Source of the DNA: an uncultured Kordia sp.
GTDB taxonomy: Bacteria > Bacteroidota > Bacteroidia > Flavobacteriales > Flavobacteriaceae
Reading direction: 5' to 3'
Assembly: GCF_947496985.1 (NCBI RefSeq)
Contig: NZ_CANMEZ010000001.1
Coordinates: 930,001 to 994,000, forward strand
Length of the DNA: 64,000 nt
Positions within the stretch are counted from its first letter, which is position 1. Each line of letters begins with the position of its first letter. The notes beneath the pieces are model-generated. The model was not told the origin of the DNA and ran no database searches. It worked only from the letters and a program-made list of their open reading frames with translations. Positions 2,379-31,110 of the stretch are shown here, piece after piece. A program made the translations under genes and the position numbers.

Positions 2379-2405
2379 TTAAAAATAAAAACGAAGCTTA
2401 ACCAA

Positions 2406-3263: not shown

Positions 3264-3267
3264 TATC

Positions 3268-4674: not shown

Positions 4675-5484
4675 ATGAATAAAAATGAAGAACTAGAAAT
4701 CGCTATACAAGCAGCATTAGATGCAGGAAGTGAAATCATGAAAATATATGAGAAGGTTGATTTGGAGGTTGAAATAAAAAGTGACAATTCTCCATTAACC
4801 ATTGCTGATAAAACTGCAAATACGGTTATTAATGGGTACCTTAAAAATACAAGTATACCTATCATTAGCGAAGAAAATAAAGTAATATCCTTTGAAGAAC
4901 GTAAAAACTGGAATCAATGTTGGATTGTAGATCCATTAGACGGAACAAAAGAATTTATTAAGCGAAATGGTGAATTTACGGTTAATATAGCGCTTATAGA
5001 AAACGGAAAACCAAAAATAGGAGTTATCTATGCACCTGTGAAAAAAGATCTTTATTACGCTGTTGTAGAAGAAAACAAAGCATTTAAAGCTTCTGTTGAA
5101 GAACACAATACATCACTTAAAGAAGTATTTGATATTGCGAAAGAAATTGCGCCAAGTAAGGAGGAGGAAACTATAAAAGTAGTGGGAAGCAGATCTCACA
5201 TGAATCAAGAAACGCAAGATTTTATCAGTCAACTAAAAGAAAAACATCCTGAAGCAACTGTTGAGGTAATCTCAAAAGGAAGTTCGCTTAAATTCTGTTT
5301 AGTAGCCGAAGGAGAAGCGCATTACTATCCAAGATATGCACCAACAATGGAATGGGATACAGCTGCTGGGCAAGCAATATGTGAAGCTGTAAACTTAGAG
5401 GTAATTTCTCAAGCAACAAATGCACCGTTGCTTTACAACAGAGAAAATCTATTAAACTCTTGGTTTCTTGTTGCTAAAAACTAA
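4675..5484 (+). CDS. cysQ: 3'(2'),5'-bisphosphate nucleotidase (PAP phosphatase)
   Basis: This Mg-dependent phosphatase of the inositol monophosphatase superfamily hydrolyses PAP to AMP. PAP is the product left when PAPS donates sulfate. The motifs are clear: SEEN (about 65-68), DPLDGTKEF (86-94) for metal binding, and EWDTAAGQ (226-233). Its 269 residues agree with CysQ. It begins a sulfate block with cysC, cysD and cysN. With a sulfotransferase gene about 24 kb downstream in the same locus, its likely job is clearing PAP produced by polysaccharide sulfation. Confidence 0.93.
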   Translation: MNKNEELEIAIQAALDAGSEIMKIYEKVDLEVEIKSDNSPLTIADKTANTVINGYLKNTSIPIISEENKVISFEERKNWNQCWIVDPLDGTKEFIKRNGEFTVNIALIENGKPKIGVIYAPVKKDLYYAVVEENKAFKASVEEHNTSLKEVFDIAKEIAPSKEEETIKVVGSRSHMNQETQDFISQLKEKHPEATVEVISKGSSLKFCLVAEGEAHYYPRYAPTMEWDTAAGQAICEAVNLEVISQATNAPLLYNRENLLNSWFLVAKN

Positions 5485-5487
5485 CAT

Positions 5488-5943
5488 ATGGCAGCCTTCA
5501 AAAAATCATCGCACATACGTAGCGTTTTAAAAGGAATCTCATGGAGAATCATTGCTACAATGGATACAATTTTGGTTGTACTTGCCATTACATGCCTATT
5601 GGGAGAATGTAGTTTAGAAAACGCCATAAAAATTGGAGCTTTTGAATTCTTACTAAAGCTAGCTATATATTATGTGCATGAACGATCTTGGTTAAAAATA
5701 TTAGGAAAACAAGCAACGGAAACCAAAGAAATACTCTACAAAACAATTTCTTGGCGGATAATTGCCACTACAGCAACATTCATTATTTCAGGAATTATTT
5801 TAGATGCTTTTGATGAAGTGGCTTTGTATATTGCACTAACGGAGTCATTTACAAAATTCATTTTATATTATTTTCACGAAAAAATATGGTTAAAATTACC
5901 ATTAGGGAAAATTCGAAACTTTTTCTTTAAAAAATATAGATAG
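5488..5943 (+). CDS. DUF2061 membrane protein with two repeats
   Basis: This small integral membrane protein of 151 residues is built from two copies of the DUF2061 unit. Each starts with a (K)xISWRIIAT motif (residues about 17-25 and 87-95) and contains two hydrophobic helices ending near a Tyr-rich Y(Y)xHE stretch (YYVHERSW, YYFHEKIW). The molecular function is not known. Members are often found beside cysC/cysD/cysN in sulfate-activation clusters, as here between cysQ and cysC, which suggests a role in sulfate uptake or PAPS handling. That role is inference from context. Confidence 0.85.
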   Translation: MAAFKKSSHIRSVLKGISWRIIATMDTILVVLAITCLLGECSLENAIKIGAFEFLLKLAIYYVHERSWLKILGKQATETKEILYKTISWRIIATTATFIISGIILDAFDEVALYIALTESFTKFILYYFHEKIWLKLPLGKIRNFFFKKYR

Positions 5944-5945
5944 TT

Positions 5946-6542
5946 ATGAAGGAGAATATAATCTCATACGAATTCAAAATAGCGAAGGAAGAACGTCAAA
6001 AACGTAACAAGCATAACTCATTTTTACTTTGGTTTACAGGACTTTCAGGCTCTGGAAAATCTACCATAGCCAATGCTGTAGAGCAAGAGTTGCATAAAAT
6101 GGGAATTCAAACCTATATACTTGATGGTGATAACATAAGAAAAGGGCTTAATAAAGACCTAACATTTGCGCCAGAAGATCGTACCGAAAACATTAGGAGA
6201 ATTGCCGAAGTAGCAAATCTTTTTGTGGATGCAGGAATGGTTGTATTAGCTTCCTTCATATCACCGTATAAAAAAGATAGAGAAAATGTCAAAAGTATTG
6301 TTAAAGATATTAACTTTGTCGAGATTTTTGTGAACACAGATGTAGAAGAATGTGAGCGTAGAGATGTAAAAGGTCTTTACAAAAAAGCACGAGAAGGTAA
6401 AATATTAAATATGACAGGAATTTCGGCGCCGTATGAAGCACCAGAAAACCCTGATATAGAAATACTAACAACGCAAGAGTCTATAGAAGAGGCTATGAGC
6501 AAAGTTATAAAGCACATTAAGCCAAAATTACAGATCAAGTAA
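5946..6542 (+). CDS. cysC: adenylyl-sulfate kinase
   Basis: APS kinase phosphorylates adenylyl sulfate at the 3' position to give PAPS, the universal sulfate donor. The P-loop GLSGSGKST is at residues 32-40, followed by the DGDNIRKGLN substrate loop and RTENIRRIAEVA, both diagnostic for the family. At 198 residues it is a stand-alone kinase, not fused to CysN. It starts 2 bp after the DUF2061 gene and ends 7 bp before cysD, so it is part of a tight operon. Reductive cysteine synthesis would also use CysH and CysI, but neither is in this window. Confidence 0.96.
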   Translation: MKENIISYEFKIAKEERQKRNKHNSFLLWFTGLSGSGKSTIANAVEQELHKMGIQTYILDGDNIRKGLNKDLTFAPEDRTENIRRIAEVANLFVDAGMVVLASFISPYKKDRENVKSIVKDINFVEIFVNTDVEECERRDVKGLYKKAREGKILNMTGISAPYEAPENPDIEILTTQESIEEAMSKVIKHIKPKLQIK

Positions 6543-6549
6543 ACGAACT

Positions 6550-7455
6550 ATGAGCAAGTATTATTTAAATTATTTGGATGAATTAGAATCAGAAGCAATA
6601 TTTATCCTGAGAGAAGTTTGGGCTCAATTCCAAAATCCGGTAATTCTTTTTTCTGGAGGAAAAGATTCCATTTTAGTAACCCATTTGGCTAAAAAAGCTT
6701 TTTACCCTTCAAAAATTCCTTTTCCATTAATGCACGTGGATACAGGACATAACTTTCCTGAAACAATTCAATTTAGAGATGATATTATTGAAGAACTTGG
6801 TGTAAAGCTTATTGTAGGTTCTGTTCAAGAATCAATCAATGAAGGAAGAGTTGCTGAAGAAAAAGGAAAAAATGCTACTCGTAATGCGTTGCAAATTACA
6901 ACACTTTTAGATGCTATTGAAAGCAATAAAATAGACTGTGCTATTGGTGGAGGAAGAAGAGATGAAGAAAAGGCTAGAGCGAAAGAACGTTTCTTTTCTC
7001 ATCGTGATGATTTTGGACAATGGGATCCAAAAAATCAACGCCCAGAATTATGGAATATCTTTAATGGAAGACACTTTGAAGGTGAACATTTCAGAGCATT
7101 CCCAATCAGTAACTGGACAGAAATGGATGTTTGGAATTATATAAAGCGCGAAAATATTGCAATCCCATCTTTATATTATGCACATGAGCGTGAAGTAGTT
7201 TGGAGACAAGATTCATGGATTCCTAACTCGGAATTCTTAGTCTTAGAAGACCACGAAGAAATAGTAACAAAAAAGATTCGTTTTAGAACACTTGGAGATA
7301 TTACAATTACTGGAGGTATCGAATCTGATGCGGATACACTAGAAAAAATAGCAGAGGAAGTTTCAGGAATGCGTCAAACAGAAAGAGGAAACAGAAGTGA
7401 TGACAAACGTTCCGAATCTGCTATGGAAGACAGAAAACGTCAAGGATATTTTTAA
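6550..7455 (+). CDS. cysD: sulfate adenylyltransferase subunit 2
   Basis: This is the small, catalytic subunit of ATP sulfurylase, which joins sulfate to ATP to form APS. The PP-loop SGGKDS is at residues 35-40, and the family signature with LMHVDTGHNFPE follows. The C-terminus has the typical basic tail ending in RKRQGYF. Its 301 residues match CysD. The partner subunit CysN is not the next gene: two O-acyltransferase genes lie between them, which is unusual because cysD and cysN are normally adjacent. Confidence 0.97.
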   Translation: MSKYYLNYLDELESEAIFILREVWAQFQNPVILFSGGKDSILVTHLAKKAFYPSKIPFPLMHVDTGHNFPETIQFRDDIIEELGVKLIVGSVQESINEGRVAEEKGKNATRNALQITTLLDAIESNKIDCAIGGGRRDEEKARAKERFFSHRDDFGQWDPKNQRPELWNIFNGRHFEGEHFRAFPISNWTEMDVWNYIKRENIAIPSLYYAHEREVVWRQDSWIPNSEFLVLEDHEEIVTKKIRFRTLGDITITGGIESDADTLEKIAEEVSGMRQTERGNRSDDKRSESAMEDRKRQGYF

Positions 7456-7467
7456 TAGAAATAATAT

Positions 7468-8916
7468 ATGTTATTTAATTCTATAGATTTTGCTGTTTTT
7501 TTTCCAATAGTAATCGCATTATATTGGTTATTAGCGAAAAATATACCCGTACGGAATATTTTCTTATTGCTTACGAGTTATCTTTTTTATGGCTGGTGGG
7601 ACTATCGCTTTTTATCTCTAATAGCATTGAGCTCTATTGTAGACTATGTTTTAGGTCAACAGATACATAAAGCATCGGAAAAATCCAAGAAAAAACTATA
7701 CCTCATACTTAGCTTATGTGTCAATTTAGGATTATTAGTATATTTTAAATATGCGAACTTCTTTATAGAAACTTTTGTTGACGCATTCTCTTTATTTGGA
7801 AGTACAATAGAAGCCAGTACACTTAATATTATTTTGCCAGTTGGAATTAGCTTCTACACGTTTCAAACATTGAGTTATACTATTGATGTATACAAAGGAA
7901 AACTAGAGCCAACAAAAAATATTATTAACTTTTTTGCCTTTGTAAGTTTCTTTCCTCAACTTGTTGCAGGACCTATTGAAAGAGCAAGTCATTTATTACC
8001 TCAATTTTCGGTAAAGCATAAATTTTCTTATACGTTGTTCAAAAGTGGTATGCTACTTATGGCGTTTGGACTTTTTAAGAAAATGGTTATTGCAGATAGA
8101 CTTTCTGTATATGTAAATGAAGTATTCAATAACCCTACGGAATATGGCGGAATAGAAATTATTATAGGAACTATCTTTTTTGCTTTTCAAATTTATTGTG
8201 ATTTTTCAGGATATTCTGATATTGCTATAGGGATTGCAAGAACTATGGGGTTTGATTTAATGAAGAATTTTGATAGTCCTTACTTCTCTAAATCAATTAC
8301 CGAATTTTGGCGTAGATGGCATATTTCCTTATCTACTTGGTTTAGAGATTATGTATACATTCCTTTAGGAGGTAGTAAAAAAGGATCTATAAGAACCTAT
8401 GCAAACTTATTTATTGTTTTTGTAGTCAGTGGACTATGGCATGGTGCAGCTATGACTTTTATAATATGGGGTGTTATTCATGGATTTGTAATCGTCTTTG
8501 AAAAAGCATCAATGTCTTTTAGACAAAAGATATATAAAGGTTTAGGACTTGATAAAAAAGTATTTTCAAACAGACTATTTTTTGGTATCATTACATTTAT
8601 TATTGTATGTTTTGCATGGATTTTCTTTAGAGCAAATTCACTAAATGATGCAATAACACTCATAAGTAATATGTTTACTGTAGAAGCAGTACATAATATT
8701 TATGAAATAGGTTGGAACAGATTGGAGTTTGATATAGCTATCCTAAGTATTGTAGCGTTGCTATCTCTTGAATATATAAACTCTAAAAAGAATTTATATA
8801 AACTCTTCAATCGTCAAAGTTATGCTTTTAGATGGGTATCTTATGTAGTAATGATTTTAGTTATTTTGGTATACCGATCAGTAACAGTGGGAGATTTTAT
8901 TTATTTTCAATTTTAG
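7468..8916 (+). CDS. MBOAT-family O-acyltransferase (AlgI/DltB-like)
   Basis: This polytopic membrane enzyme of 482 residues moves acyl groups, most often acetyl, across the inner membrane for transfer to exported sugars. The MBOAT hallmarks are present: FWRRWHISLSTWFRDYVYIPLGG (281-302, the His285 motif) and SGLWHGA with the conserved active-site His325. About ten or more hydrophobic segments can be seen. The next gene encodes an SGNH-type protein, the usual extracytoplasmic partner of AlgI-like acyltransferases. Both sit between cysD and cysN, which suggests the same glycan is sulfated and O-acylated. The acyl donor and target sugar cannot be read from the sequence. Confidence 0.92.
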   Translation: MLFNSIDFAVFFPIVIALYWLLAKNIPVRNIFLLLTSYLFYGWWDYRFLSLIALSSIVDYVLGQQIHKASEKSKKKLYLILSLCVNLGLLVYFKYANFFIETFVDAFSLFGSTIEASTLNIILPVGISFYTFQTLSYTIDVYKGKLEPTKNIINFFAFVSFFPQLVAGPIERASHLLPQFSVKHKFSYTLFKSGMLLMAFGLFKKMVIADRLSVYVNEVFNNPTEYGGIEIIIGTIFFAFQIYCDFSGYSDIAIGIARTMGFDLMKNFDSPYFSKSITEFWRRWHISLSTWFRDYVYIPLGGSKKGSIRTYANLFIVFVVSGLWHGAAMTFIIWGVIHGFVIVFEKASMSFRQKIYKGLGLDKKVFSNRLFFGIITFIIVCFAWIFFRANSLNDAITLISNMFTVEAVHNIYEIGWNRLEFDIAILSIVALLSLEYINSKKNLYKLFNRQSYAFRWVSYVVMILVILVYRSVTVGDFIYFQF

Positions 8917-8926
8917 ATGATATCGT

Positions 8927-10258
8927 ATGAAAAATATTAAAAAAATATTGGTCTTTATCTTCGTATTAGCAATCTCATTTTTGATTGTTAAAGCCATCTA
9001 TGATATTGATAATCCTAATAAGAAATACAAAATAGCCAACAATGAAAAATACGATGTTGTAAACCTTGGAACTTCTCACGGGTATAGTTTTACCTATGGT
9101 TTCTATGGAATTAATGGAAGACGATTCAATAGAGGAGGAAACACGCTTTATTACGATTTACAGATATACAAAGAAATACGTGAAAGCTTAAATGAAAATG
9201 CATTGGTTTTTATTCCAATCTCTTACTTTTCATTTGGTCAAGCGGAAAATGGAGGAAGTAAAGAAGGAGCTCAGGGTACAAATACATTTGTAGATGAATT
9301 TTATTATAGACTGCCTCCTCAGGCGATAAAAGATTACAGTGTTTCCAAACACTTAGACTTAATAACTACAACCTTAAGAGCTAATGTTTCTAAAGTATTT
9401 TCAAGGGAGCTTAAATATCGAAATTATACACCGTCTTCTTTTAATTATAAAGCATATTTGAATAAAAGTTATAAGGAAAAAAATGCTAAAAGTATCAACC
9501 TTAAAAATCATGGAGTCAATAGAGCTAAATATCATAAAAAAGAAGCTGTTTATATTGAAGATGATAGAAACATTGAGTATCTGAAAATGCTTATTAAAGA
9601 AATAAAAAAAGACAATTGTAAGCCAATAATTATACTAACACCATACCATTCTGAATATAATAAGCATTTTGACGCTTCATGGAGAAATAAATATGTTCTT
9701 GATAAAATTGATGAAGCTGCTAAAAATGAAAATGTAGATATTTTAGATTATTCGAATGATCCACGTTTTTCAAAAAACAAGAAATATTTTAAAAATACGG
9801 ATCACTTAAATGCTAAAGGACGTATAGAATTTACAAAAACACTGTTCAAAGATTTAGAAAAAGATGAAATTATAGATCGAAATTATCATAAAATTCGTTC
9901 AGTAACTAAATTTGAGAATAAAAAAATAACAGAAAACTTGCTCCTCAAAAACCTTGAGGTAATTCAGGATACAAAAGCAATTTATTTTATGTTTCATTAT
10001 GAGGGTGATATGAAAAATATAACCAAAGAAGCATTAGTATTTCATCTTAAAGGAGAAAACAATAAAAAAGTATTAGTAACTAATAAAAAGATAAAGGATA
10101 AAAGAAACATCAATAATACTATAGTTTTTAGTATTCCTATAGAGAAATTTAAAGAAACTAATAAAATAAAATTTAATTTGATGATTCCAAGAAATAAAAA
10201 GGCAGTAATTTTATCGGATATATTTGAGTTCGATAAAACAGAGCTAAATCTAAATTAA
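8927..10258 (+). CDS. membrane-anchored SGNH-like protein, partner of the MBOAT acyltransferase
   Basis: The 443-residue protein starts with one hydrophobic anchor (about 7-23), leaving the rest outside the cytoplasm. The first block NLGTSHG carries the candidate nucleophile Ser50, and the last block NTDHLNAKG supplies Asp292 and His293, giving an SGNH hydrolase/transferase pattern like AlgJ/AlgX-type proteins. About 140 extra residues follow the SGNH core, rich in Lys and beta-strand-like, and may bind the glycan. It lies 10 bp after the MBOAT gene and 5 bp before cysN. I infer that it completes O-acylation of the polysaccharide; the family assignment is by motif only. Confidence 0.75.
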   Translation: MKNIKKILVFIFVLAISFLIVKAIYDIDNPNKKYKIANNEKYDVVNLGTSHGYSFTYGFYGINGRRFNRGGNTLYYDLQIYKEIRESLNENALVFIPISYFSFGQAENGGSKEGAQGTNTFVDEFYYRLPPQAIKDYSVSKHLDLITTTLRANVSKVFSRELKYRNYTPSSFNYKAYLNKSYKEKNAKSINLKNHGVNRAKYHKKEAVYIEDDRNIEYLKMLIKEIKKDNCKPIIILTPYHSEYNKHFDASWRNKYVLDKIDEAAKNENVDILDYSNDPRFSKNKKYFKNTDHLNAKGRIEFTKTLFKDLEKDEIIDRNYHKIRSVTKFENKKITENLLLKNLEVIQDTKAIYFMFHYEGDMKNITKEALVFHLKGENNKKVLVTNKKIKDKRNINNTIVFSIPIEKFKETNKIKFNLMIPRNKKAVILSDIFEFDKTELNLN

Positions 10259-10263
10259 AATAT

Positions 10264-11517
10264 ATGTTAGATAACAACCAATTATTACGTTTTACAACTG
10301 CAGGTAGTGTAGATGACGGGAAAAGTACCTTAATTGGACGATTGCTTTACGATTCAAAATCTATTTTTGAAGATCAATTACAAGCAATTGAAAATACAAG
10401 CAAGAAAAAAGGACACGAAGGTGTAGATTTAGCCTTATTCACAGATGGGTTAAAGGATGAAAGAGAACAAGGTATTACCATTGATGTAGCCTACAGATAT
10501 TTTACAACACCAAAACGAAAGTTTATCATTGCAGATACACCTGGGCACATTCAATATACTAGAAACATGGTTACAGGAGCTTCTACAGCAAATGCAGCTA
10601 TTATTTTGGTTGATGCACGTCATGGAGTTATAGAGCAAACTAAAAGACACTCGTTTATAGCGTCATTATTGCAAATACCACATATTATTGTGTGTATTAA
10701 TAAGATGGATTTAGTTGAGTTTAAGGAAGAAAAGTATAATGAAATCATTGCGCAATTTGAAGAATTCTCTTCTAAACTACTCGTAAAAGATATACGATTT
10801 ATTCCTATTAGTGCGTTATTAGGAGATAATGTTGTAAATAGATCTAAAAATATGGAATGGTATCAAGGTGCACCATTATTACACACCTTAGAAACAATGC
10901 ATATTAGTAGTGATATAAACAAAGTTGATGCGCGTTTTCCTGTACAAACAGTATTGCGTCCTCAATCTGAATCGCATAGAGACTACAGAGGATATGCAGG
11001 AAGAGTAGCTAGTGGAATATTTAGAAAAGGAGATGAGGTAACTATCTTGCCTTCTGGGTTTTCTTCTAAAATAAAATCTATTGATACGTTAAACGAAGAA
11101 AAAGAACAAGCATACGCACCAATGTCTGTTTCTATCACATTACAAGATGATATTGATATCAGCCGTGGAGATATGATTGTAAAATCAAACAATAAACCAG
11201 AAGTCTCTCAAGATGTTGATGTAATGATTTGTTGGTTAAACGATCAACCAGCGAAGCCAAGAGCTAAATATTTTATCAGACATACATCTAATGAGCAAAA
11301 GGCAATGATAAAAGAAATTGTCTACAAAATAGATATCAATAGTTTTAATCGTGATACTGACGATAAAAGCTTAAATATGAATGATATTGGAAGAATAAAA
11401 ATACGAACTACCAAACCATTAATGATAGACGCATACAGGCAAAATAGAACTACAGGAAGTATCATTTTAATAGATGAAACAACAAACGAAACTGTAGCTG
11501 CTGGTATGATCATATAA
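10264..11517 (+). CDS. cysN: sulfate adenylyltransferase subunit 1 (GTPase)
   Basis: This GTP-hydrolysing regulatory subunit of ATP sulfurylase drives APS formation by CysD. Elongation-factor-like G motifs are present: GSVDDGKST at 14-22, DTPGH at 91-95, and NKMD near 146. Beta-barrel domains II and III follow. At 417 residues it lacks the fused C-terminal APS kinase seen in NodQ-type proteins, consistent with the separate cysC upstream. The gene is parted from cysD by the acyltransferase pair but is clearly in the same operon, starting 5 bp after the SGNH gene. Confidence 0.96.
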   Translation: MLDNNQLLRFTTAGSVDDGKSTLIGRLLYDSKSIFEDQLQAIENTSKKKGHEGVDLALFTDGLKDEREQGITIDVAYRYFTTPKRKFIIADTPGHIQYTRNMVTGASTANAAIILVDARHGVIEQTKRHSFIASLLQIPHIIVCINKMDLVEFKEEKYNEIIAQFEEFSSKLLVKDIRFIPISALLGDNVVNRSKNMEWYQGAPLLHTLETMHISSDINKVDARFPVQTVLRPQSESHRDYRGYAGRVASGIFRKGDEVTILPSGFSSKIKSIDTLNEEKEQAYAPMSVSITLQDDIDISRGDMIVKSNNKPEVSQDVDVMICWLNDQPAKPRAKYFIRHTSNEQKAMIKEIVYKIDINSFNRDTDDKSLNMNDIGRIKIRTTKPLMIDAYRQNRTTGSIILIDETTNETVAAGMII

Positions 11518-11548
11518 AATATCAATTAAACTATAAAAACGAAATGTA

Positions 11549-12109: not shown

Positions 12110-12132
12110 ACCAATCCTTTTAGAAGATAAAA

Positions 12133-13410: not shown

Positions 13411-13425
13411 AATTAAGAATGAAGT

Positions 13426-18650: not shown

Positions 18651-18665
18651 TAAAAAAGAAACTAA

Positions 18666-19634: not shown

Positions 19635-19641
19635 AATTTGA

Positions 19642-20508: not shown

Positions 20509-20578
20509 AGTATTTCGGTGTAAAAACATGTGAAGTATTTTGAATCTCACAAAGTGAGTAAATTTTAGTGTAAAAATT
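20509..20578 (+). other. 70 bp spacer with a direct repeat and a small hairpin
   Basis: The segment at 20512-20532 (ATTTcgGTGTAAAAAcATGTG) recurs in similar form just before the asnB-like start at about 20561-20583 (ATTTTaGTGTAAAAAttATGTG), as if the translation-start region had been duplicated. Between them lies a 5 bp hairpin, CTCAC-AAA-GTGAG, at 20546-20558. No T-run follows, so it is a poor terminator. The function is unknown. Confidence 0.45.
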
Positions 20579-22375
20579 ATGTGTGGAATTTTAGGAAGCA
20601 ATACTGAAATTAGTGAAAGTGACTTTCATAAAGTATTAAAAACACTAGACAGAAGAGGTCCAGATATACAATCTGCCAAAAAAACGGATACCTTTTACTT
20701 TGGGCATACTAGATTGGCAATTGTTGATTTGGATGAAAGATCAAACCAGCCTTTTTTCTATGCACATGAAGGCAAAGAAATAACACTTACATTCAACGGA
20801 GAAATTTATAATTTCTTATCTGTAAAATCAGAATTAGAAGCTCTAAACTTTCAATTTACAACCTCTAGTGATACAGAAGTGGTTGCTGCAGCATATTTAG
20901 CTTGGGGAAAAGCTTCTTTTGATAAATTTGAAGGAATGTGGGCGTTGGCAGTCTATGAAGAAGATACCAAAAAAATCATATTCTCTAGAGACAGAGTTGG
21001 TAAAAAACCACTCTACATATTTGATAAAGAAAACGGAGAAATCTCTTTCTCTTCTGCTCTGAAATCAATAAAAGAAATACATCATTCGATAAAATTTCAA
21101 TTAAATCAAGAAGCAATCTCTTTATACTTTGCACTTGGGTTTGTGCCAGGAAAACATTCCATATACAAAGATATTTACAAAGTAAGAGCGGGAGAAATTA
21201 TTGAATACAGTTATGAAGCCGGAAAAGGATACTTCTACGAAAACAATAACTTTAGTAGCTATAGTGGAAAAAGCGATCCTAAAAGAACTGTAAAAAGTCA
21301 CATTGAAGAAGCTGTAAAAAACAGAATGATCAGTGATGTTCCGTATTGTACGCTACTAAGTAGTGGAGTAGACAGTAGTATTGTTACCTACTACTCCAAA
21401 AAACACAATCCTACAATAGAAGCGTTTACTGTTGGGTTCAACGATCCGAAACTAAACGAATTAGAAGGAGCGCGAAAAATAGCCAAACGAATCGGTGTAA
21501 AACTAAACGAATTATACCTTGATGATGCTGATATAGAAGAAGCGTTTCTAGAATACTACAATGCATATGAAGAACCTTTTGCAGATTACAGCGGAATTCC
21601 AACATTGGCACTATTCAAAAAAATAGGAAAACATTACAGACTCGCATTTACAGGAGATGGTGGAGATGAACTATTCTTCGGATATCCTCACTATTGGAAA
21701 AAATATGTATTGTATAAACTCAATAGAATACAGCGCATACTACCGTTTATCAAAAATATGGCTCCTGCCAAAATCAGAAACATAATCAGCTGCAAAAAAG
21801 AAGCATTTGAATCAGAATATCTAAAACTAAATTTCTGTGTAACAGAAAGCTCTGAAAACTATATAAATATGGTATTCTCTGAGGTCTTAAAAACGGACAA
21901 AAACTTTATGCGTGCTACCATTGAGTACGATAGAAAGCTGAACAACTTACCCGATAAATATTTGGTAAAAGTAGACAGAGCATCTATGGCATACAGTGTT
22001 GAAGTACGTTCTCCGTTAATGGATGAAAGGCTAAAAAAGAAAACACAAAAAACATCTTTGTGGAAAATATTTACACCATTTTCACTAAAACTATACCTAA
22101 AGCTTAAATACATTAAACTATTTGGTTTAAACTATCTTTTCGCGAAGAAAAAAGGATTTACACCGCCTGTAGTACAACTCATAAACAATGCATTTTCCGA
22201 AAATGAATATGCTCAGTTTTTAAAAATCATAAAAACGCATCACCAAGAAGTATTCGCTTACTTTGAAAACATTTCATTTAACAAACTCAAAAATAGAAAA
22301 CTGCAATATCAACGTGTATACTTTTTCTATGAATGGTTAAAATCTCAAAAGTATGATGAAGCGACTAATAATTGA
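20579..22375 (+). CDS. asnB: asparagine synthase-like glutamine amidotransferase
   Basis: The 598-residue protein has an N-terminal Ntn glutaminase domain beginning Met-Cys-Gly-Ile, with Cys2 as nucleophile, and a C-terminal AsnB synthetase domain with the ATP pyrophosphatase loop SGVDSS at 262-267. AsnB homologues in O-antigen loci (WbpS type) are known to amidate hexuronic acids. The UDP-GalNAcA-type genes directly upstream make uronamide formation the most likely role here. Housekeeping asparagine synthesis is the alternative. The start is fixed by the obligatory Cys2. Confidence 0.88.
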   Translation: MCGILGSNTEISESDFHKVLKTLDRRGPDIQSAKKTDTFYFGHTRLAIVDLDERSNQPFFYAHEGKEITLTFNGEIYNFLSVKSELEALNFQFTTSSDTEVVAAAYLAWGKASFDKFEGMWALAVYEEDTKKIIFSRDRVGKKPLYIFDKENGEISFSSALKSIKEIHHSIKFQLNQEAISLYFALGFVPGKHSIYKDIYKVRAGEIIEYSYEAGKGYFYENNNFSSYSGKSDPKRTVKSHIEEAVKNRMISDVPYCTLLSSGVDSSIVTYYSKKHNPTIEAFTVGFNDPKLNELEGARKIAKRIGVKLNELYLDDADIEEAFLEYYNAYEEPFADYSGIPTLALFKKIGKHYRLAFTGDGGDELFFGYPHYWKKYVLYKLNRIQRILPFIKNMAPAKIRNIISCKKEAFESEYLKLNFCVTESSENYINMVFSEVLKTDKNFMRATIEYDRKLNNLPDKYLVKVDRASMAYSVEVRSPLMDERLKKKTQKTSLWKIFTPFSLKLYLKLKYIKLFGLNYLFAKKKGFTPPVVQLINNAFSENEYAQFLKIIKTHHQEVFAYFENISFNKLKNRKLQYQRVYFFYEWLKSQKYDEATNN

Positions 22376-23504
22376 TGGATCTAACCTAAGATCTGGTGGT
22401 GGTGTAACGCATATCACAGAAATTTTAAACAACATTAGTGACGAAAAACAAGCGTTTGATGAGGTTGTGTTATTTAGTAATCACAATACGCTTGGAAAAA
22501 TACAAGAACGTCCTTGGTTAAAAAAAGAATCGCATCCATGGCTCAACAAAGGCTTATTGCACATTACCATGTGGAAAAAAACAAAGCTAAAATCGTTTCT
22601 AAAAGAAGAGCAAAAAAATAACAACTCACTACTATTTACACCACCAGGAACCTACACAGGTTTTTTTAGACCTTATGTTGGAATGAGTAGAAACATGTTA
22701 ATTTTTGACAGTACAGAAAGTGATAGATACGGTTTCTCTTGGATGAAATTTAAATTTTGGTTGCTAAGAAAAGAGCAAACAAAATCATTTGAAAACTCTA
22801 AACAAGTCATCTTTATTTCAAAATATGCAAAAAAAACGGCTCAGAAATTCTTAAAAAAAGACATCTCAAATGCTCCAATCATTCATCATGGAGTAAACAA
22901 GAAATTTGTTGAAAAGCCAAAAGCTCAAAAACCGATTACAGACTACAAAGAATCACCTTTCAAGCTGCTGTATATTTCTCCTATTACAGTATATAAACAT
23001 CATGTTCCACTCATAAAAGCAGTGAAAAAATTACATGAAGAAGGCTATCCAATTCAATTAGATTTAGTTGGTGGAAGCTATGCAAAAAGCCTAAAAGCCT
23101 TCAATGAAGAGTGCAATTCTGACAGCAGCTACCAAAAAATTGTAAAATATCATGGGAAAGTTGCATATGATACCATAGAAAACTTTTATAAAACCTCAGA
23201 TGCGTTTATATTTGCATCAACTTGTGAGAACATGCCAAATATATTAATAGAGGCAATGTCTGCAGGTTTACCTGTCATGTGTTCTAATTTTAACCCAATG
23301 CCAGAATTTTTAGGAACTAGCCATCCTTTCTATTTTGACCCGACAGAAGAAAAAGAAGCATACAACAAGTTAAAAAAGTTTATAGACTCTCCCGAATCAA
23401 GATATAGCTCAGCACAAGCGTCTTTTGCTAAAACTCAGGAATACAACTGGGTAAAATGCGCAGAAGAAACATTCGAATGTTTAATTTCAACACTAAAACA
23501 ATAG
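22353..23504 (+). CDS. glycosyltransferase family 4
   Basis: This 383-residue GT-B fold glycosyltransferase is probably a cytosolic enzyme working on the lipid-linked repeat unit. The N-terminus has DGSNLRSGGGVTHI, a donor-domain Gly-rich entry. The C-terminal domain has LLYISPITVYKHH and the retaining-GT4 signature CENMPNILIEAMSAGLPV (about residues 290-307), with the two conserved Glu residues. It overlaps the asnB-like gene by 23 bp; the second ATG (22356) is an equally good start. Donor and acceptor cannot be deduced; GalNAcA or its amide is possible from position. Confidence 0.85.
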   Translation: MMKRLIIDGSNLRSGGGVTHITEILNNISDEKQAFDEVVLFSNHNTLGKIQERPWLKKESHPWLNKGLLHITMWKKTKLKSFLKEEQKNNNSLLFTPPGTYTGFFRPYVGMSRNMLIFDSTESDRYGFSWMKFKFWLLRKEQTKSFENSKQVIFISKYAKKTAQKFLKKDISNAPIIHHGVNKKFVEKPKAQKPITDYKESPFKLLYISPITVYKHHVPLIKAVKKLHEEGYPIQLDLVGGSYAKSLKAFNEECNSDSSYQKIVKYHGKVAYDTIENFYKTSDAFIFASTCENMPNILIEAMSAGLPVMCSNFNPMPEFLGTSHPFYFDPTEEKEAYNKLKKFIDSPESRYSSAQASFAKTQEYNWVKCAEETFECLISTLKQ

Positions 23505-23508
23505 TACA

Positions 23509-24516
23509 TTGAGTAGTTTTAAAAATAAAATTCTGTTAATAACGGGCGGTACTGGTTCCTTTGGAAACGCAGTATTGAATCGTTTTGTAAATTCTGATAT
23601 CAAAGAAATTAGAATCTTTTCAAGAGATGAAAAAAAACAGGACGATCTCAGACGTAGATTGGCAAATCCAAAAGTTAAATTCTATATTGGTGATGTAAGG
23701 GACTATCGTTCTGTAGAAACAGCGGTTAGAGGTGTGGATTATATCTATCATGCTGCAGCATTAAAACAAGTGCCATCATGTGAGTTTTTCCCAGTAGAAG
23801 CGGTAAAAACAAATGTGCTTGGAACTGAAAATGTATTAGAGGCTGCCATCAATCACAATGTAAAAAGTGTAGTGGTATTAAGTACAGACAAAGCAGTATA
23901 CCCAATCAATGCTATGGGAATCTCAAAGGCAATGATGGAAAAAGTATTAGTGGCTAAATCTAGAAATGCAGGAAACACAGTAATCTCAGGAACACGCTAT
24001 GGAAATGTAATGGCTTCAAGAGGATCCGTAATTCCTTTATTTGTAGATCAAATAAAGCAAGGAAAAGATCTTACACTTACAGATCCAAAAATGACACGTT
24101 TCATGATGACATTAGAAGATGCTGTAGACTTAGTTCTTTTTGCTTTTAACAATGCAGAACCCGGAGATATGTTTGTGCAAAAAGCACCTGCTGCAACTGT
24201 AGAAACATTAGCAAAAGCACTATTGGAAATGTATGGAAGTCCTAATAAGGCGATAGTGATTGGAACTAGACACGGAGAAAAATTATACGAATCACTGCTT
24301 ACTAGAGAAGAAAAGGTAAAAGCAGAAGACATGGGAGACTACTATAGAATTCCTGCAGATAACAGAGACTTAAATTATGCAAACTTCTTCTCTGAAGGAG
24401 AAATAGATATGAATAAAGTAGAGGACTATCATTCTCATAATACGGAGCGTTTAGACGTGGAAGGAATGAAAAAATTGTTACTAAAGCTAGATAGCATTCG
24501 CGAAGATCTTCAATAA
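23509..24516 (+). CDS. UDP-N-acetylglucosamine 4,6-dehydratase/5-epimerase (CapE/FnlA/WbjB type; TTG start)
   Basis: This is the first enzyme of UDP-N-acetyl-L-fucosamine synthesis. The Rossmann motif GGTGSFGN is at 13-20, and STDKAVYPINAMGISK places the Met136/Lys140 pair characteristic of this short dehydratase group, in which Met replaces the usual Tyr. Its 335 residues match CapE/WbjB rather than the long membrane-bound CapD forms. The TTG at 23509 is needed because the Rossmann fold begins only eight residues in. It is followed by the cupin, CapF-like and CapG-like genes, making a complete FucNAc set. Confidence 0.92.
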   Translation: MSSFKNKILLITGGTGSFGNAVLNRFVNSDIKEIRIFSRDEKKQDDLRRRLANPKVKFYIGDVRDYRSVETAVRGVDYIYHAAALKQVPSCEFFPVEAVKTNVLGTENVLEAAINHNVKSVVVLSTDKAVYPINAMGISKAMMEKVLVAKSRNAGNTVISGTRYGNVMASRGSVIPLFVDQIKQGKDLTLTDPKMTRFMMTLEDAVDLVLFAFNNAEPGDMFVQKAPAATVETLAKALLEMYGSPNKAIVIGTRHGEKLYESLLTREEKVKAEDMGDYYRIPADNRDLNYANFFSEGEIDMNKVEDYHSHNTERLDVEGMKKLLLKLDSIREDLQ

Positions 24517-24522
24517 TAAAAA

Positions 24523-24963
24523 ATGCAAACAGTACAAAAGCCCATACTAATTCAAGGCGGAAGTCATATTGACGAACGTGGACGTCTCGATTTTATGAAC
24601 GACTTCAATTTGTCTGACATCAAACGAATGTACATGACTACACATTACAATACAAATGTAATAAGAGCTTGGCAAGGTCATAAAATTGAAAGTAGATGGT
24701 TTTATTGTACGCAAGGAGCATTTACAGTAAAATTAGTTCAGGTTGATGATTGGGAAAACCCATCAAGTGATTTAAAAGTATTCACTTTTGAACTTGAAGA
24801 AGAAAAGCCACAAGTGTTATACATTCCTAATGGATATGTAAACGGATTTAAAGCAACAAAAGAAAACTCTAAATTAATGATACTGGCAGATTACGGATTG
24901 AATGAAATAGAAAATGACGCCGTACGATTTGATCAAAATAAATGGACAACATGGGACAACTAA
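24523..24963 (+). CDS. cupin-fold sugar isomerase/epimerase-like protein
   Basis: This 146-residue RmlC/WxcM-like cupin has the opening GGSHIDERGRLDFMNDF, which parallels the RmlC N-terminus (FxDxRG), and a later IPNGYVNGF that matches the RmlC VPxGFAHGF position. RmlC-like and WxcM/FdtA-like cupins epimerise or isomerise nucleotide keto-sugars. It sits between the CapE- and CapF-like genes and overlaps the latter. It may assist the C3/C5 epimerisations of the FucNAc route or act on another keto-sugar. Specific activity is not known; the position loosely recalls the WbuC cupin of E. coli fnl clusters. Confidence 0.75.
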   Translation: MQTVQKPILIQGGSHIDERGRLDFMNDFNLSDIKRMYMTTHYNTNVIRAWQGHKIESRWFYCTQGAFTVKLVQVDDWENPSSDLKVFTFELEEEKPQVLYIPNGYVNGFKATKENSKLMILADYGLNEIENDAVRFDQNKWTTWDN

Positions 24964-26084
24964 TTAAAGTTGGAATTACAGGGCAAAATGGTTTCATGGG
25001 AGGCCATCTGTATAACTTTCTAGGAACCAAAGAAGAAGAGATTGAAAGAATTGCATTTCAAAGAGATTTCTTTACTAGTGAAAACGATTTACAACAATTT
25101 GTAAAATCATGTGATGTTATTGTGCACATTGCGGCAATGAATAGACATGAAGATCAACAAGTAATCTATGATACGAATGTAGCATTAGTGCAAAAGTTGA
25201 TAGATGCTTGTAAAACAACAGAAGCAGTACCAAAAATCATCTTCTCTTCATCTACACAAGAAGAACGAGACAATCTTTACGGACAATCCAAAAGAGATGG
25301 AAGAAAACTATTAGAAGACTGGGCAACAGCATACAACGGAGCTGTAGCGTCGTTAATAATTCCAAATGTTTTTGGACCTTTTGGAAAACCATTCTATAAC
25401 TCTTTCATTGCAACATTTTCACATCAAATTGTGCAAGGAGAACAACCAACTGTAATCAACGACAGTACAGTAAACTTAATTTACATCAACGAGTTATCGC
25501 AAGCATTTTATGATGAAATCATAAAAGAAAATGCTGAAAACATACAATCATACACAGTACCACATACATCGTCGCGTAAAGTATCAGAAATCTTAGGATT
25601 ACTAAAAGATTTCAAAACACAATACGTTGATAATGGACAAGTACCTAAAGTAGATTTAAATTCATTTGAATTAGATTTATTTAATACGTTTACGAGTTTT
25701 ATCCCAAAAAATTATTTCCCAAGAAAATTTACAAAACATACAGACAATCGTGGTGCATTTGTAGAAATCATGCGTGCAGGTTCTGCAGGGCAATCGTCTT
25801 ACTCAACAACAGTTCCTGGGATTACACGTGGAAATCACTATCATACACGAAAAGTAGAACGCTTTGCTGTCATTAGCGGGAAAGCATCTATTCAACTCAG
25901 AAAAATAGATTCAGATGAAGTATTTGAATACATTTTAGACGGTTCAGAGCCAGCTTATGTAGATATGCCAATTTGGTACACTCACAATATCACCAACATT
26001 GGTGACACCGAATTAATAACGTTATTTTGGATTAACGAACCATACAATCCAGAAGATGCAGATACCTATTTTGTAAAAGTATAA
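24951..26084 (+). CDS. CapF-like UDP-keto-6-deoxyhexosamine reductase/epimerase (FnlB/WbjC)
   Basis: This bifunctional enzyme is the second step of UDP-L-FucNAc synthesis. The N-terminal SDR domain has TGQNGFMGGH near residue 10 and Tyr-x-x-x-Lys in LYGQSKRDG. The C-terminal cupin domain (about 260-377) has GNHYHTRKVERFAVISG with metal-binding His residues and Glu. This fusion of reductase and cupin is diagnostic for CapF. I prefer the ATG at 24951 (377 residues); an in-frame ATG at 24942 adds three residues. Either way it overlaps the upstream cupin gene. Confidence 0.91.
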   Translation: MGQLIKVGITGQNGFMGGHLYNFLGTKEEEIERIAFQRDFFTSENDLQQFVKSCDVIVHIAAMNRHEDQQVIYDTNVALVQKLIDACKTTEAVPKIIFSSSTQEERDNLYGQSKRDGRKLLEDWATAYNGAVASLIIPNVFGPFGKPFYNSFIATFSHQIVQGEQPTVINDSTVNLIYINELSQAFYDEIIKENAENIQSYTVPHTSSRKVSEILGLLKDFKTQYVDNGQVPKVDLNSFELDLFNTFTSFIPKNYFPRKFTKHTDNRGAFVEIMRAGSAGQSSYSTTVPGITRGNHYHTRKVERFAVISGKASIQLRKIDSDEVFEYILDGSEPAYVDMPIWYTHNITNIGDTELITLFWINEPYNPEDADTYFVKV

Positions 26085-26094
26085 TAACGATACA

Positions 26095-27231
26095 ATGAAG
26101 AAATTAAAAGTAGTAACAGTTGTAGGAACACGACCAGAAATTATTCGATTATCGTGTACACTTATTGCATTAGATAAAAATGATGCCATAGAACATATTT
26201 TAGTTCATACAGGGCAAAACTATGACTATGAGTTAAATGAAATATTCTTTGAGGATTTAGGGTTAAGAAAACCTGATTATTTCCTTGAAGCTGCAGGAAA
26301 AAATGCTACAGAAACTGTTGGAAACATTCTTATAAAAATTGATCCAATCTTAGAGCAAGAAAATCCAGATGCATTTTTAGTATTAGGAGATACAAACTCT
26401 TGTTTATGTGCTATTCCAGCCAAAAAACGTAAAATTCCTGTATTCCATATGGAAGCTGGAAACCGTTGCTTTGATCAGCGTGTACCAGAAGAAACTAACC
26501 GTAAAATTGTAGATCACGTATCAGATATCAATCTTACATATAGTAGCATTGCTCGCGAATACTTATTAAGAGAAGGTTTGTCTCCTGATAGAGTAATCAA
26601 AACCGGAAGCCCAATGTATGAAGTACTTCATAAGTTCTTATCAAAAATTGAAGCTTCAGATGTATTAGACAAATTAGGATTAGAAAAACATAAATTCTTT
26701 GTGGTATCATCGCACAGAGAAGAAAACATAAGCAATCCAAAAAACTTTAAAGGATTGATAGATTCTTTAAATCTAATAGCGGAAAAATACGATTATCCAA
26801 TCATTGTTTCTACACATCCAAGAACGCGAAACATGTTGAACAGTAAAGACATGAAAACGCACAAAAACATTCAATTCTTAAAACCACTTGGATTTTCGGA
26901 TTACAACGCTTTGCAAATGCATTCGTTTGCAGTGCTATCTGATTCAGGAACTATTTCAGAAGAATCGTCTATTTTAAACTTTCATGCATTAAACATTAGA
27001 GAAGCGCATGAACGTCCAGAAGCTATGGAAGAAGCATCTGTAATGATGGTAGGATTAAATCCAGAACGCATCATGCAAGGATTAGCAGCAGTAAGTGTTC
27101 AGGAAAGAAGTCCAAAAAGAAACTTTAGAGAAGTATATGACTACTCTATGCCAAATGTGAGTGAAAAAATGGTGAGAATCATATTATCATATACCGACTA
27201 CGTTAACAGAGTTGTATGGTCTAAATACTAG
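26095..27231 (+). CDS. wecB: UDP-N-acetyl-hexosamine 2-epimerase, non-hydrolysing (CapG/FnlC/WbjD)
   Basis: This 378-residue member of the WecB family has GTRPEIIRLS at 11-20, HTGQNYDYEL, LGDTNSC, HMEAGNR and SDSGTISEES, all expected catalytic or UDP-binding motifs. The family epimerises C2 of UDP-HexNAc. Directly after CapE- and CapF-like genes, its substrate is most likely UDP-N-acetyl-L-pneumosamine, giving UDP-N-acetyl-L-fucosamine, rather than UDP-GlcNAc. The symbol wecB names the family. It is 10 bp from the CapF gene and ends 7 bp before the ATG of the WbuB-like gene. Confidence 0.9.
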   Translation: MKKLKVVTVVGTRPEIIRLSCTLIALDKNDAIEHILVHTGQNYDYELNEIFFEDLGLRKPDYFLEAAGKNATETVGNILIKIDPILEQENPDAFLVLGDTNSCLCAIPAKKRKIPVFHMEAGNRCFDQRVPEETNRKIVDHVSDINLTYSSIAREYLLREGLSPDRVIKTGSPMYEVLHKFLSKIEASDVLDKLGLEKHKFFVVSSHREENISNPKNFKGLIDSLNLIAEKYDYPIIVSTHPRTRNMLNSKDMKTHKNIQFLKPLGFSDYNALQMHSFAVLSDSGTISEESSILNFHALNIREAHERPEAMEEASVMMVGLNPERIMQGLAAVSVQERSPKRNFREVYDYSMPNVSEKMVRIILSYTDYVNRVVWSKY

Positions 27232-27238
27232 TATTAGT

Positions 27239-28462
27239 ATGAGAATTGTAATTATAAAACAACTATTTAACCCAGAGCCAACGGCAAAAAGTTTAGACTT
27301 TGCTAAAGAACTTGTTGCCAGAGGTCATGATGTGGAAGTACTTACAGGCTTTCCATCGTATCCTATTGGGAAAATATACGACGGCTACAAACAACGGTTT
27401 TACAAAAGGGAAAAAATGGAAGGTATCGATATTATTCGTGTGCCTATCTATCCTGACCATAGTGCTTCTGGGCTCAAACGTTTTTTTCATTACATTTCCT
27501 ATGCTTTATCAGCTACGTTTATTGGGTTATTCTTAATAAAAAAACCAGATGTTGCTTTTGTATATCAAGGAGCAATTCCTGTGGCAATTCCTGCTATAAT
27601 TCTTAAAAAAATTAGAAAAGTCCCTTTTCTATACGATATTAATGATTTGTGGCCAGAAACAGTTGCTGCTTCAGGAATGTTAGGGAGTAAAAGAGGGCTG
27701 AAAATTATTAATAAGTGGTGTAATATGAACTACAGAAATGCTAGTTTTATTACAGTTGCCACACCAGGATTTCAAAAAAGCTTAATAGAAAAAGGAGTTC
27801 CAAAAGAAAAACTAGAAATAGTATCAAACTGGAGTAGAGATAAAATTTCTACAGAAGAACTTCCAGCTGCACTAAAGAAGCAATACTTTAAGAAAGAAAA
27901 AATCAATATTCTATACGCTGGTAACTTAGGAATAGTACAATCATTACAAACGATCTTAAAAACAGCAAAAAGCTTACAAGAACAAGGATTGACTAAAATT
28001 CAGTTTTTATTCCTTGGAGGAGGTGCTGATGAAGAAAACTTAAAGCAATATGCTGCGGATGAGTTGCTTAAAAATGTAACGTTTATTCCAAGAGTTGCTT
28101 CTGAAGAAGTAAGTAAATATTTAAATGCAGGAGATTTTTTATTAGTTCACCTAAAAAAGGATAAACTATTTGAGATTACAATTCCTTCTAAAATATTAGC
28201 CTATCTAAAATCAGGAAAACCTATTCTGATGGGCTTACGCGGAGATGCAGCCGATATTTTAAATGCTGCGAACGCAGGATTTACTTTTGAACCAGACAAC
28301 AGTGATGATTTAGAAGAAAAAATAAAACAAATGATCGCACTTGATGCGGAAAAAATAGCTGAAATGGGAACCAATGGAAAGGTGCATTATGAAGAAAACC
28401 TATCTATTATTTCCAGTGTAGATAAAATAGAACGAAATTTGTTAAAAATTGCAAGAAAATAA
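27239..28462 (+). CDS. WbuB-like glycosyltransferase (probable L-FucNAc transferase)
   Basis: This 407-residue GT4 enzyme has the N-terminal pattern NPEPTAKSLDFAKELVARGH and LTGFPSYP, which typifies the WbuB/WbjE group. These transfer L-fucosamine and follow fnlABC or capEFG genes in many clusters. The C-terminal half has YAGNLGIVQSLQTIL and the donor-binding IPSKILAYLKSGKPIL. I use the ATG at 27239; an in-frame TTG at 27212 would overlap the upstream gene and add nine residues with no similarity to the family start. The genes immediately upstream make its presumed donor. Confidence 0.87.
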   Translation: MRIVIIKQLFNPEPTAKSLDFAKELVARGHDVEVLTGFPSYPIGKIYDGYKQRFYKREKMEGIDIIRVPIYPDHSASGLKRFFHYISYALSATFIGLFLIKKPDVAFVYQGAIPVAIPAIILKKIRKVPFLYDINDLWPETVAASGMLGSKRGLKIINKWCNMNYRNASFITVATPGFQKSLIEKGVPKEKLEIVSNWSRDKISTEELPAALKKQYFKKEKINILYAGNLGIVQSLQTILKTAKSLQEQGLTKIQFLFLGGGADEENLKQYAADELLKNVTFIPRVASEEVSKYLNAGDFLLVHLKKDKLFEITIPSKILAYLKSGKPILMGLRGDAADILNAANAGFTFEPDNSDDLEEKIKQMIALDAEKIAEMGTNGKVHYEENLSIISSVDKIERNLLKIARK

Positions 28463-28463
28463 G

Positions 28464-29321
28464 ATGAACTATACACCGGTAATTATTATAGGAGCAGGAA
28501 GATCGGGAACGAATATGTTGAGAGATATTATTACGTCAATTCCAAAATTTGAAACATGGGATTGTGACGAAATAAACCCTATATGGCGTTATGGAAATAG
28601 AGATTTTGAAACAGATGTATTGTTACCAGAACACGCGTCTGAAAAAACAAAAAAATACATTCGAAAAAGATTTCAGCAATTACAAAAAAGTACAAAAGCG
28701 GACTTTGTTGTCGAAAAAACATGTGCCAATTCACTACGATTAGGATTTGTATATGAAATATTTCCTGAAGCTAAATACATTATTATCAACAGAGATGGAC
28801 GTGATGTAGTGCCAAGTGCTATGAAAAGATGGGGTTCTAGCTTTGAGCTAAAATATACCCTCAAAAAATTACGATACGTACCTTGGATTGATTTTACATA
28901 TCATGTATGGAAATTTGGAAAGAATAGAATCAAAAAATTCTTTACAAAAACAGAAAGCCTATCTTTTTGGGGACCTGTATACAAAGGTATTGACAAAGAT
29001 GTGGCAAATCACTCACTAATGGAAGTATGTGCCAAGCAGTGGCAAACTTGTGCCGAGCATACCATAAAAGACAGAGTTTCGGTTCCTGCCGAAAATATCT
29101 TTGATGTAAAATATGAAGAATTTGTAACAAATCCTGTAAAAGCAATGGAAGAACTCGCTTCATTTTTTAATATCACAATGACCAAAGAGCAGGTAAAAGA
29201 TTTGGTTAAAAATGTGTCAAGTAGAAGTATCGGAACACATAAAAAAAGCTTTTCAGTAGAAGAACAAGCACTATTGAATACAATGTTAACCGAAACATTA
29301 GTAAAACTTAATTATAAGTAA
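28464..29321 (+). CDS. PAPS-dependent sulfotransferase
   Basis: This 285-residue cytosolic enzyme of the carbohydrate sulfotransferase type moves sulfate from PAPS to a sugar. The 5'-phosphosulfate loop GAGRSGTNML is at residues 10-19 and the 3'-phosphate motif NRDGRDVVPSAMKRW at 109-123, with Arg110 and Ser118. An in-frame TTG at 28449 is rejected because the ATG at 28464 places the P-loop at the normal distance from the N-terminus. It lies between the WbuB-like and PglC-like genes. Together with cysC, cysD, cysN and cysQ upstream it strongly suggests a sulfated polysaccharide. Confidence 0.88.
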   Translation: MNYTPVIIIGAGRSGTNMLRDIITSIPKFETWDCDEINPIWRYGNRDFETDVLLPEHASEKTKKYIRKRFQQLQKSTKADFVVEKTCANSLRLGFVYEIFPEAKYIIINRDGRDVVPSAMKRWGSSFELKYTLKKLRYVPWIDFTYHVWKFGKNRIKKFFTKTESLSFWGPVYKGIDKDVANHSLMEVCAKQWQTCAEHTIKDRVSVPAENIFDVKYEEFVTNPVKAMEELASFFNITMTKEQVKDLVKNVSSRSIGTHKKSFSVEEQALLNTMLTETLVKLNYK

Positions 29322-29916: not shown

Positions 29917-29919
29917 ACT

Positions 29920-31068: not shown

Positions 31069-31110
31069 GTAATTTGTGTCATTAAATAAAGAATTTGTTT
31101 TTTTGAGAAG

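Follow-up and report, generated by a model that had tools for sequence, protein, structure and literature searches.

The stretch of DNA considered here, termed the window, is 64,000 nucleotides long (contig 1, bases 930001-994000) and comes from the genome of an uncultured Kordia sp. (Flavobacteriaceae), which amounts to 5.48 Mb in 61 contigs and is 99.98% complete. It carries genes for sulfate activation and for a sulfotransferase within a glycan locus, and an original prediction had proposed that they form a dedicated supply of 3′-phosphoadenosine 5′-phosphosulfate (PAPS). The locus is a run of 37 plus-strand genes (290-40080), in which gaps do not exceed 70 bases save one of 410 bases (16927-17336). 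It begins with the gene of a 359-amino-acid (aa) protein without a Pfam family, which is followed by rmlB, A, C and D, by cysQ-DUF2061-cysC-cysD-(MBOAT-SGNH)-cysN and by the gene of a small lipoprotein-like protein. The sulfotransferase gene is located 17 kb downstream of cysN on the same strand, with a glycosyltransferase gene on one side and a sugar-phosphate transferase gene on the other. The features are as follows (APS, adenosine 5′-phosphosulfate; PAP, 3′-phosphoadenosine 5′-phosphate; ORF, open reading frame):

1362-4661, plus strand: rmlB, rmlA, rmlC and rmlD, dTDP-rhamnose synthesis (Pfam GDP_Man_Dehyd, NTP_transferase, dTDP_sugar_isom, RmlD_sub_bind); 13-base gap to cysQ
4675-5484, plus strand: cysQ, 3′(2′),5′-bisphosphate nucleotidase, PAP removal (TIGR01331, 253 bits, cut-off 228.8; DPLDGT motif)
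5488-5943, plus strand: DUF2061 membrane protein (PF09834, 6.1e-29, two stretches)
5946-6542, plus strand: cysC, APS kinase, APS to PAPS (TIGR00455, 262 bits, above cut-off; P-loop GLSGSGKS and ISPY)
6550-7455, plus strand: cysD, ATP sulfurylase small subunit, class B as defined below (TIGR02039, 411 bits, cut-off 396.6)
7468-8916, plus strand: MBOAT O-acyltransferase, between cysD and cysN (PF03062, 1.9e-34)
8927-10258, plus strand: SGNH/DltD-like partner of the MBOAT protein (GTSH ... DHLN motifs by eye; no Pfam family)
10264-11517, plus strand: cysN, ATP sulfurylase large subunit, a GTPase (TIGR02034, 568 bits, above cut-off; GSVDDGKS, DTPGH and NKMD motifs)
12133-13410, plus strand: Wzy_C protein, glycan assembly (PF04932)
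13426-14769, plus strand: 447-aa protein between the Wzy_C proteins (no Pfam family)
14744-15940, plus strand: second Wzy_C protein (PF04932 at cut-off, 31.8 vs. 31.7 bits)
17337-28462, plus strand: UDP-sugar dehydrogenase, epimerase, deacetylase, asnB-like, glycosyltransferases, capD/capF/wecB-like (Pfam; the gene-name labels are those of this analysis)
28464-29321, plus strand: PAPS sulfotransferase (ATG at 28464, ORF from 28449; PF13469, 1.1e-23; PF00685, 1.5e-12)
29323-40080, plus strand: sugar-phosphate transferases (29323, 36631), aminotransferase, capD-like, second UDP-sugar dehydrogenase, glycosyltransferase and, last, purD (Pfam)

The products of cysQ, DUF2061, cysC, cysD and cysN all exceed curated cut-offs (NCBIfam for the cys genes, PF09834 for DUF2061), and CysC, CysN, CysD and CysQ keep the motifs expected of active enzymes. 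The genes for PAPS synthesis, cysC, cysD and cysN, are found inside the glycan cluster (5946-11517). The original prediction had assigned cysQ, cysC, cysD, cysN and a PAPS sulfotransferase to a polysaccharide run, and all of them lie where it put them and pass their profile cut-offs. It had further set the cys genes between rhamnose genes and ligase/flippase genes, which agrees with rmlBACD and the Wzy_C proteins, but the supposed flippase (13426-14769) has no Pfam support; the gene order that it gave for the cys block is right, yet the MBOAT/SGNH-like pair splitting cysD from cysN had been overlooked.

The sulfotransferase ORF encodes 290 aa and is matched by PF13469 (85 bits, cut-off 27) and PF00685 (48 bits, cut-off 22). 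The protein carries the sequences GAGRSGTNML and NRDGRDVVPS, which we take to be the 5′-phosphosulfate-binding P-loop and the 3′-phosphate-binding R...S motif, respectively, and its R115 and S123 show conservation of at least 90% over 28 sequences that were aligned. The AlphaFold2 model (28-sequence alignment) reached a predicted local distance difference test score (pLDDT) of 73.5 and a predicted template modelling score (pTM) of 0.74. When this model was compared with PDB structures by Foldseek, 134 matches were obtained at E≤0.001, and the 50 of them that were listed all have the sulfotransferase fold, with query template modelling scores (TM-scores) of 0.36-0.53; the best match is a tyrosylprotein sulfotransferase (TPST; 5.6e-08), and mycobacterial STF9 and heparan sulfotransferases are also among these 50. 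Profile, motifs and predicted fold support a sulfotransferase of the PAPS type, for which sulfate transfer is predicted. Profile searches found no second PF13469 or PF00685 protein genome-wide, so the one in the window is the only one detected, and a plasmid search with it gave two distant matches. PF03567 had no match in the genome either, but it gave none in the controls, so this does not speak for its absence.

One may ask whether the PAPS supply is indeed dedicated. Genome-wide, only one CysD and only one CysC were detected, and neither a second cysDN nor a Sat protein (PF01747) was found, hence the idea of another ATP sulfurylase elsewhere in the genome was rejected. Beyond the CysD of the window, PF01507 matches two proteins of the genome, CysH on contig 2 and DndC on contig 1; the latter (TIGR03183, 402 bits; L012:5260-6597, minus strand) belongs to a DNA phosphorothioation system about 16 kb past the end of the window. 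PF01077 matches a NirA/Sir-type protein adjoining CysH on contig 2, which passes no sulfite-reductase cut-off and is labelled sulfite reductase (SIR) from its context. In this cysH-SIR locus (L010) 244 bases separate cysH from SIR, siroheme genes and the gene of a thioredoxin-reductase-like protein come after them, homoserine/methionine genes come before, and cysDN is missing. Since reduction to sulfide is seemingly encoded and the only ATP sulfurylase found is CysDN of the window, this enzyme is probably shared and would serve cysteine synthesis as well as glycan sulfation. The statement of the original prediction that cysH and cysI are absent holds within the window, where the genome-wide PF01507 and PF01077 searches match only CysD, but fails for the genome, which has CysH and the protein labelled SIR on contig 2. 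The check that it suggested, for cysH/cysI and another cysND copy in the rest of the genome, gave no other CysD, and CysH and a sulfite reductase on another contig; the word "dedicated" is not sustained, as the genome yielded only one CysD, one CysC and no Sat, and keeps its CysH and sulfite reductase elsewhere without a cysDN of their own.

The distribution of these genes in the family was followed by a PF01507 profile search over 249 Flavobacteriaceae genomes. Twenty plus twenty regions were chosen by PF01507 score class, with genes typed by blastp against the proteins of the window and of L010, and 80 loci (L114-L193), the best 80 of 588 by similarity to the window CysD, were added, so the panels are not random samples. 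Two arrangements were distinguished: class A, in which cysDN is linked to cysH, and class B, in which cysC stands beside cysD. In class A cysD stands with cysH in 19 of 20 regions, typically as cysH-cysD-cysN-SIR-cobA-cysG-trxB-like, while the class B order is cysQ-DUF2061-cysC-cysD-cysN or a variant of it. The number of class B members varies with the rule applied: 95 cysD copies by synteny, 96 plus the window in the tree, and 95 regions for glycan markers. By synteny, 95 cysD copies have cysC, but no cysH, as a companion; 68 of these 95 CysD proteins are at least 80% identical to that of the window, and the order is exactly cysQ-DUF2061-cysC-cysD-cysN for 48 of them. The loci closest to the window CysD (96-95%) belong to Algicola sp. 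(metagenome-assembled genome, MAG), Psychroserpens luteolus, Winogradskyella sp. (MAG) and Saonia flava. In a tree of 122 CysD sequences, a single branch with support of 100/99 separates 19 class A from 97 class B rows, six rows belonging to neither and some rows carrying a long-branch warning; the window CysD falls in class B and is not flanked by cysH and SIR.

A glycan marker was present within 6 kb in 68 of 95 class B regions vs. none of 19 class A regions, and class B blocks next to glycan genes are spread over many genera. In 10 class B regions rmlC or rmlD directly precedes cysQ, as rmlD does in the window. In the synteny comparison that had been proposed along with the original prediction, cysQ-DUF2061-cysC-cysD-cysN recurs in relatives, mostly beside glycan genes; Psychroserpens luteolus (L115) and Bizionia algoritergicola (L123) are among those that have the block. 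In Salegentibacter agarivorans (L152) two class B cys blocks lie close together and flank epimerase and UDP-sugar dehydrogenase genes. DUF2061 also occurs beside cysH (among L071, L081, L196, L198, L202, L203, L206, L207, L209 and L218), and its presence both there and in the PAPS block hints that it may contribute more generally to the activation or uptake of sulfate.

In the window, 2.8 kb holding the MBOAT and SGNH-like genes lie between cysD and cysN; the largest gap among the 94 panel copies for which it was measured is 935 bases. An MBOAT homologue directly follows cysN in L061 and L123 (Bizionia algoritergicola), and the protein after it has SGNH-like motifs by eye in both; in L153 the MBOAT homologue is located two genes further past cysN. 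The SGNH-like protein of the window is 23% identical to the protein after MBOAT in L123, matched no Pfam family, and gave a structure model with pLDDT 43, which was not used. The two genes are probably an accessory O-acylation pair that moves with the cys block.

Among the 249 family genomes, 113 have CysC (≥161 bits), 95 have PF13469, 91 have both and 132 have neither (Fisher p 5e-41, not corrected for relatedness). Among the matches listed, genomes with a listed CysC hold 147 PF13469 places, of which 48 (43 of 79 genomes) are within 30 kb of cysC; in a 3.6 Mb genome, 30 kb to each side makes up about 1.7%. Genomes with class A cysD hold 26 PF13469 places, of which none lies within 50 kb of cysD and one lies within 100 kb (again among the matches listed, and resting on 64 class A-range cysD places that are part of those listed). 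Relatives place varied sulfotransferases near the class B block. Furthermore, in ten genomes picked by reading the tables (G007, G024, G038, G039, G069, G072, G106, G141, G239 and G242) CysC accompanies a single PF01507 match, in the CysD range, so PAPS there does not go to any CysH visible to PF01507; eight of the ten have PF13469, G239 marginally. A further genome, of the same genus as that of the window (G152; 4.7 Mb, 99% complete), gives neither a PF01507 nor a PF13469 match and only a marginal PF01583 match, CysD, CysH, CysC and the sulfotransferase seemingly being absent all together.

The CysH of the window's genome (L010:10584-11198, minus strand) has 204 aa, ends in ECGLHS and is devoid of the CC and CxxC pairs that mark iron-sulfur APS reductases. 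The comparison of CysH proteins covered L010, the class A loci L064-L083 and L194-L223. Class A loci of G017, G033, G041 and G045 encode CysH proteins 64-66% identical to that of the window's genome, and these genomes have no CysC match; their CysH must therefore take APS, unless PAPS comes from an undetected enzyme. This sequence pattern, CysH without the cysteine pairs in class A genomes that gave no CysC match, suggests that APS may be reduced without an iron-sulfur cluster, while CysH of three class A loci (L065, L081 and L083) does have the CC/CxxC pairs. If CysH of the window's genome also takes APS, then CysC and CysQ would be needed for the glycan only and CysDN would be shared. At 30 CysH loci, i.e., that of the window's genome and 29 from genomes read as having class B only, flanks of about 1.5 kb showed neither cysD nor cysN; "class B only" is here a reading of score ranges among the PF01507 matches listed. 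In 22 of 78 such genomes there was no match to the window-genome CysH (E≤1e-10), and 20 of these 22 have at least one further PF01507 match, perhaps a divergent CysH, for which reason only the genomes with a single PF01507 match are relied on here.

Taken together, these observations are best read as a locus encoding a sulfated surface polysaccharide, with CysDN shared with cysteine synthesis, and the probability of this sequence-based reading is put at roughly 0.78. In this model CysDN would convert sulfate and ATP to APS, CysC would phosphorylate APS to PAPS, the sulfotransferase (28464-29321) would sulfate a sugar or a glycan intermediate that the neighbouring genes provide, and the PAP thus formed would be destroyed by CysQ. 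O-acylation of this glycan is the probable task of the MBOAT/SGNH pair. Cysteine synthesis is likely to depend on the CysDN of the glycan locus, because no other ATP sulfurylase was found and the cysDN that class A relatives carry in their cysH-SIR locus is missing from this one. What the original prediction said of a PAPS-making, PAPS-using and PAP-clearing set within a glycan locus is supported, with the sulfotransferase backed by profile, motifs and fold, and with the association of CysC with sulfotransferases, and of the cys block with glycan genes, seen again elsewhere in the family.

Several observations weigh against this reading. No glycan marker lies within 6 kb in 27 of the 95 class B regions, and only 29 of the 95 yielded a sulfotransferase, although the detector (a profile begun from 31 seeds and extended once) gives a lower bound, most regions reaching about 10 kb to each side. 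There is no PF13469 match in 22 of the 113 CysC genomes, and four genomes have PF13469 but no CysC. The remaining objections concern the acceptor: the solved structures closest in fold are enzymes that sulfate protein tyrosine, at TM-scores of only about 0.5, and the sulfotransferase is just 11-23% identical to those of 27 aligned relatives; at such identity, and with 17 kb between its gene and cysN, the acceptor is not readable from sequence. It could accordingly be argued that PAPS and the sulfotransferase serve lipid, protein or small-molecule acceptors instead of a polysaccharide, for which the likeness to tyrosylprotein sulfotransferases and the unpredictable acceptor speak. Such a role is improbable, given that the gene is embedded in a run of sugar-nucleotide, glycosyltransferase and sugar-phosphate-transferase genes, that relatives have varied sulfotransferases near the same block, and that the TPST resemblance is weak by sequence (best PDB match, E 0.016).

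Alternatively, ordinary sulfate-assimilation genes might have come to lie in a glycan locus by chance, beside an unrelated or inactive sulfotransferase. The single CysD and CysC, the lack of any detected Sat, and CysH and sulfite reductase on another contig are what one would expect in this case. Nevertheless, many genera have the class B block alongside glycan genes, and CysC and sulfotransferases tend to occur in the same genomes; the sulfotransferase retains its cofactor motifs and predicted fold; CysC-less class A relatives use cysH-cysDN-SIR, which leaves CysC and CysQ without a clear role in cysteine synthesis; and ten family genomes keep CysC with one CysD-range match and no second PAPS_reduct protein. 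Chance placement is therefore given little credence. The original prediction had itself named the opposite outcome, that these are the only cysDN genes and are needed simply for cysteine: they are indeed the only ones found, but the second half clashes with the sulfotransferase, with the relatives and with the ten genomes just mentioned, and cysteine synthesis as the sole use was rejected on these grounds. A fully dedicated supply, with cysteine derived from another sulfur source, may draw on those ten genomes too and on G152, which suggests that sulfate assimilation may be dispensable in the genus, but it is quite unlikely and was rejected, since CysH, the sulfite-reductase-type protein, siroheme and homocysteine/methionine genes are kept together in the genome and would be pointless without APS or PAPS.

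Beyond the sulfated surface polysaccharide and the shared CysDN, a broader scenario may be put forward tentatively, with some doubt prevailing: the glycan-linked PAPS module might have become the only ATP sulfurylase in a large part of Flavobacteriaceae, after loss of the older cysDN between cysH and SIR. Surface-glycan sulfation and cysteine synthesis would then be fed from a common APS pool that forks at CysC, since these CysH proteins may use APS itself as their substrate with no need of an iron-sulfur cluster. The shared ATP sulfurylase would offer a clean test of how sulfate is divided between cysteine and a surface glycan in one cell.

Past the glycan run, the window encodes two giant secreted-looking proteins, each with a Por_Secre_tail match (type IX sorting): one of 2057 aa (41513-47686) with 13 SdrD_B stretches and another of 2069 aa (56787-62996) with Laminin_G_3, fn3 and GEVED domains.

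Discussion of marine flavobacteria usually casts them as consumers of sulfated polysaccharides, and they are best known for degrading algal ones. A mat study reports, in the portion of its text available, that all its Bacteroidetes genomes were without a sulfotransferase gene (PMC9723792). In the present survey 95 of 249 family genomes have PF13469, 91 of them together with CysC, thus many are candidate producers of sulfated glycans, for which cysQ-DUF2061-cysC-cysD-cysN provides a simple marker. No publication describing the module in Flavobacteriaceae was recognised from the titles and abstract openings of the papers listed, with few subscription journals covered; neither the spread of the class B block through the family nor its service as the sole ATP sulfurylase seems to have been described. 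Among the closest known systems is the class A locus of the family, cysH-cysD-cysN-SIR-cobA-cysG-trxB-like, which has the same two ATP-sulfurylase subunits and whose remainder is kept at L010 in the window's genome. Unlike the window, it contains no cysC or cysQ and no glycan neighbours, and its CysD is 58-61% identical to that of the window and lies on the other side of the 100/99 branch.

The view that such glycans are rarely described in bacteria, expressed in the original prediction, is only partly right, as clusters of this kind with solved sulfated capsules have already been published, on which the comparison below draws from the accessible parts of the reports. In Vibrio sp. KMM 8419, the gene cluster of a sulfated capsule that was solved by nuclear magnetic resonance contains three sulfotransferase genes along with a second copy each of cysC, cysN and cysD (PMC11641403). 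As in the window, cysN, cysD and cysC stand with a sulfotransferase, rml genes and an acyltransferase in a glycan cluster; in contrast, the cysNDC genes of the window are the only copies found (one CysD, one CysC, no Sat), its assembly genes include Wzy_C proteins where Vibrio has an ABC (kps) exporter, and the phylum is different. Cobetia marina KMM 1449 has a capsule containing sulfated rhamnose, whose gene cluster includes cysN/cysC, cysD and cysQ in one operon (PMC11766843), and like the window it combines these genes with a glycan cluster, a sulfotransferase and the dTDP-rhamnose pathway, whereas its cysN/C is fused, a sulfate permease is part of the operon, a kps transporter is used, and the accessible text notes no DUF2061. 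Pontiella is a further reported producer, according to the part of the report available (PMC7356697). In these published clusters PAPS genes together with a sulfotransferase are a hallmark of sulfated capsules, so the module of the window is known in kind.

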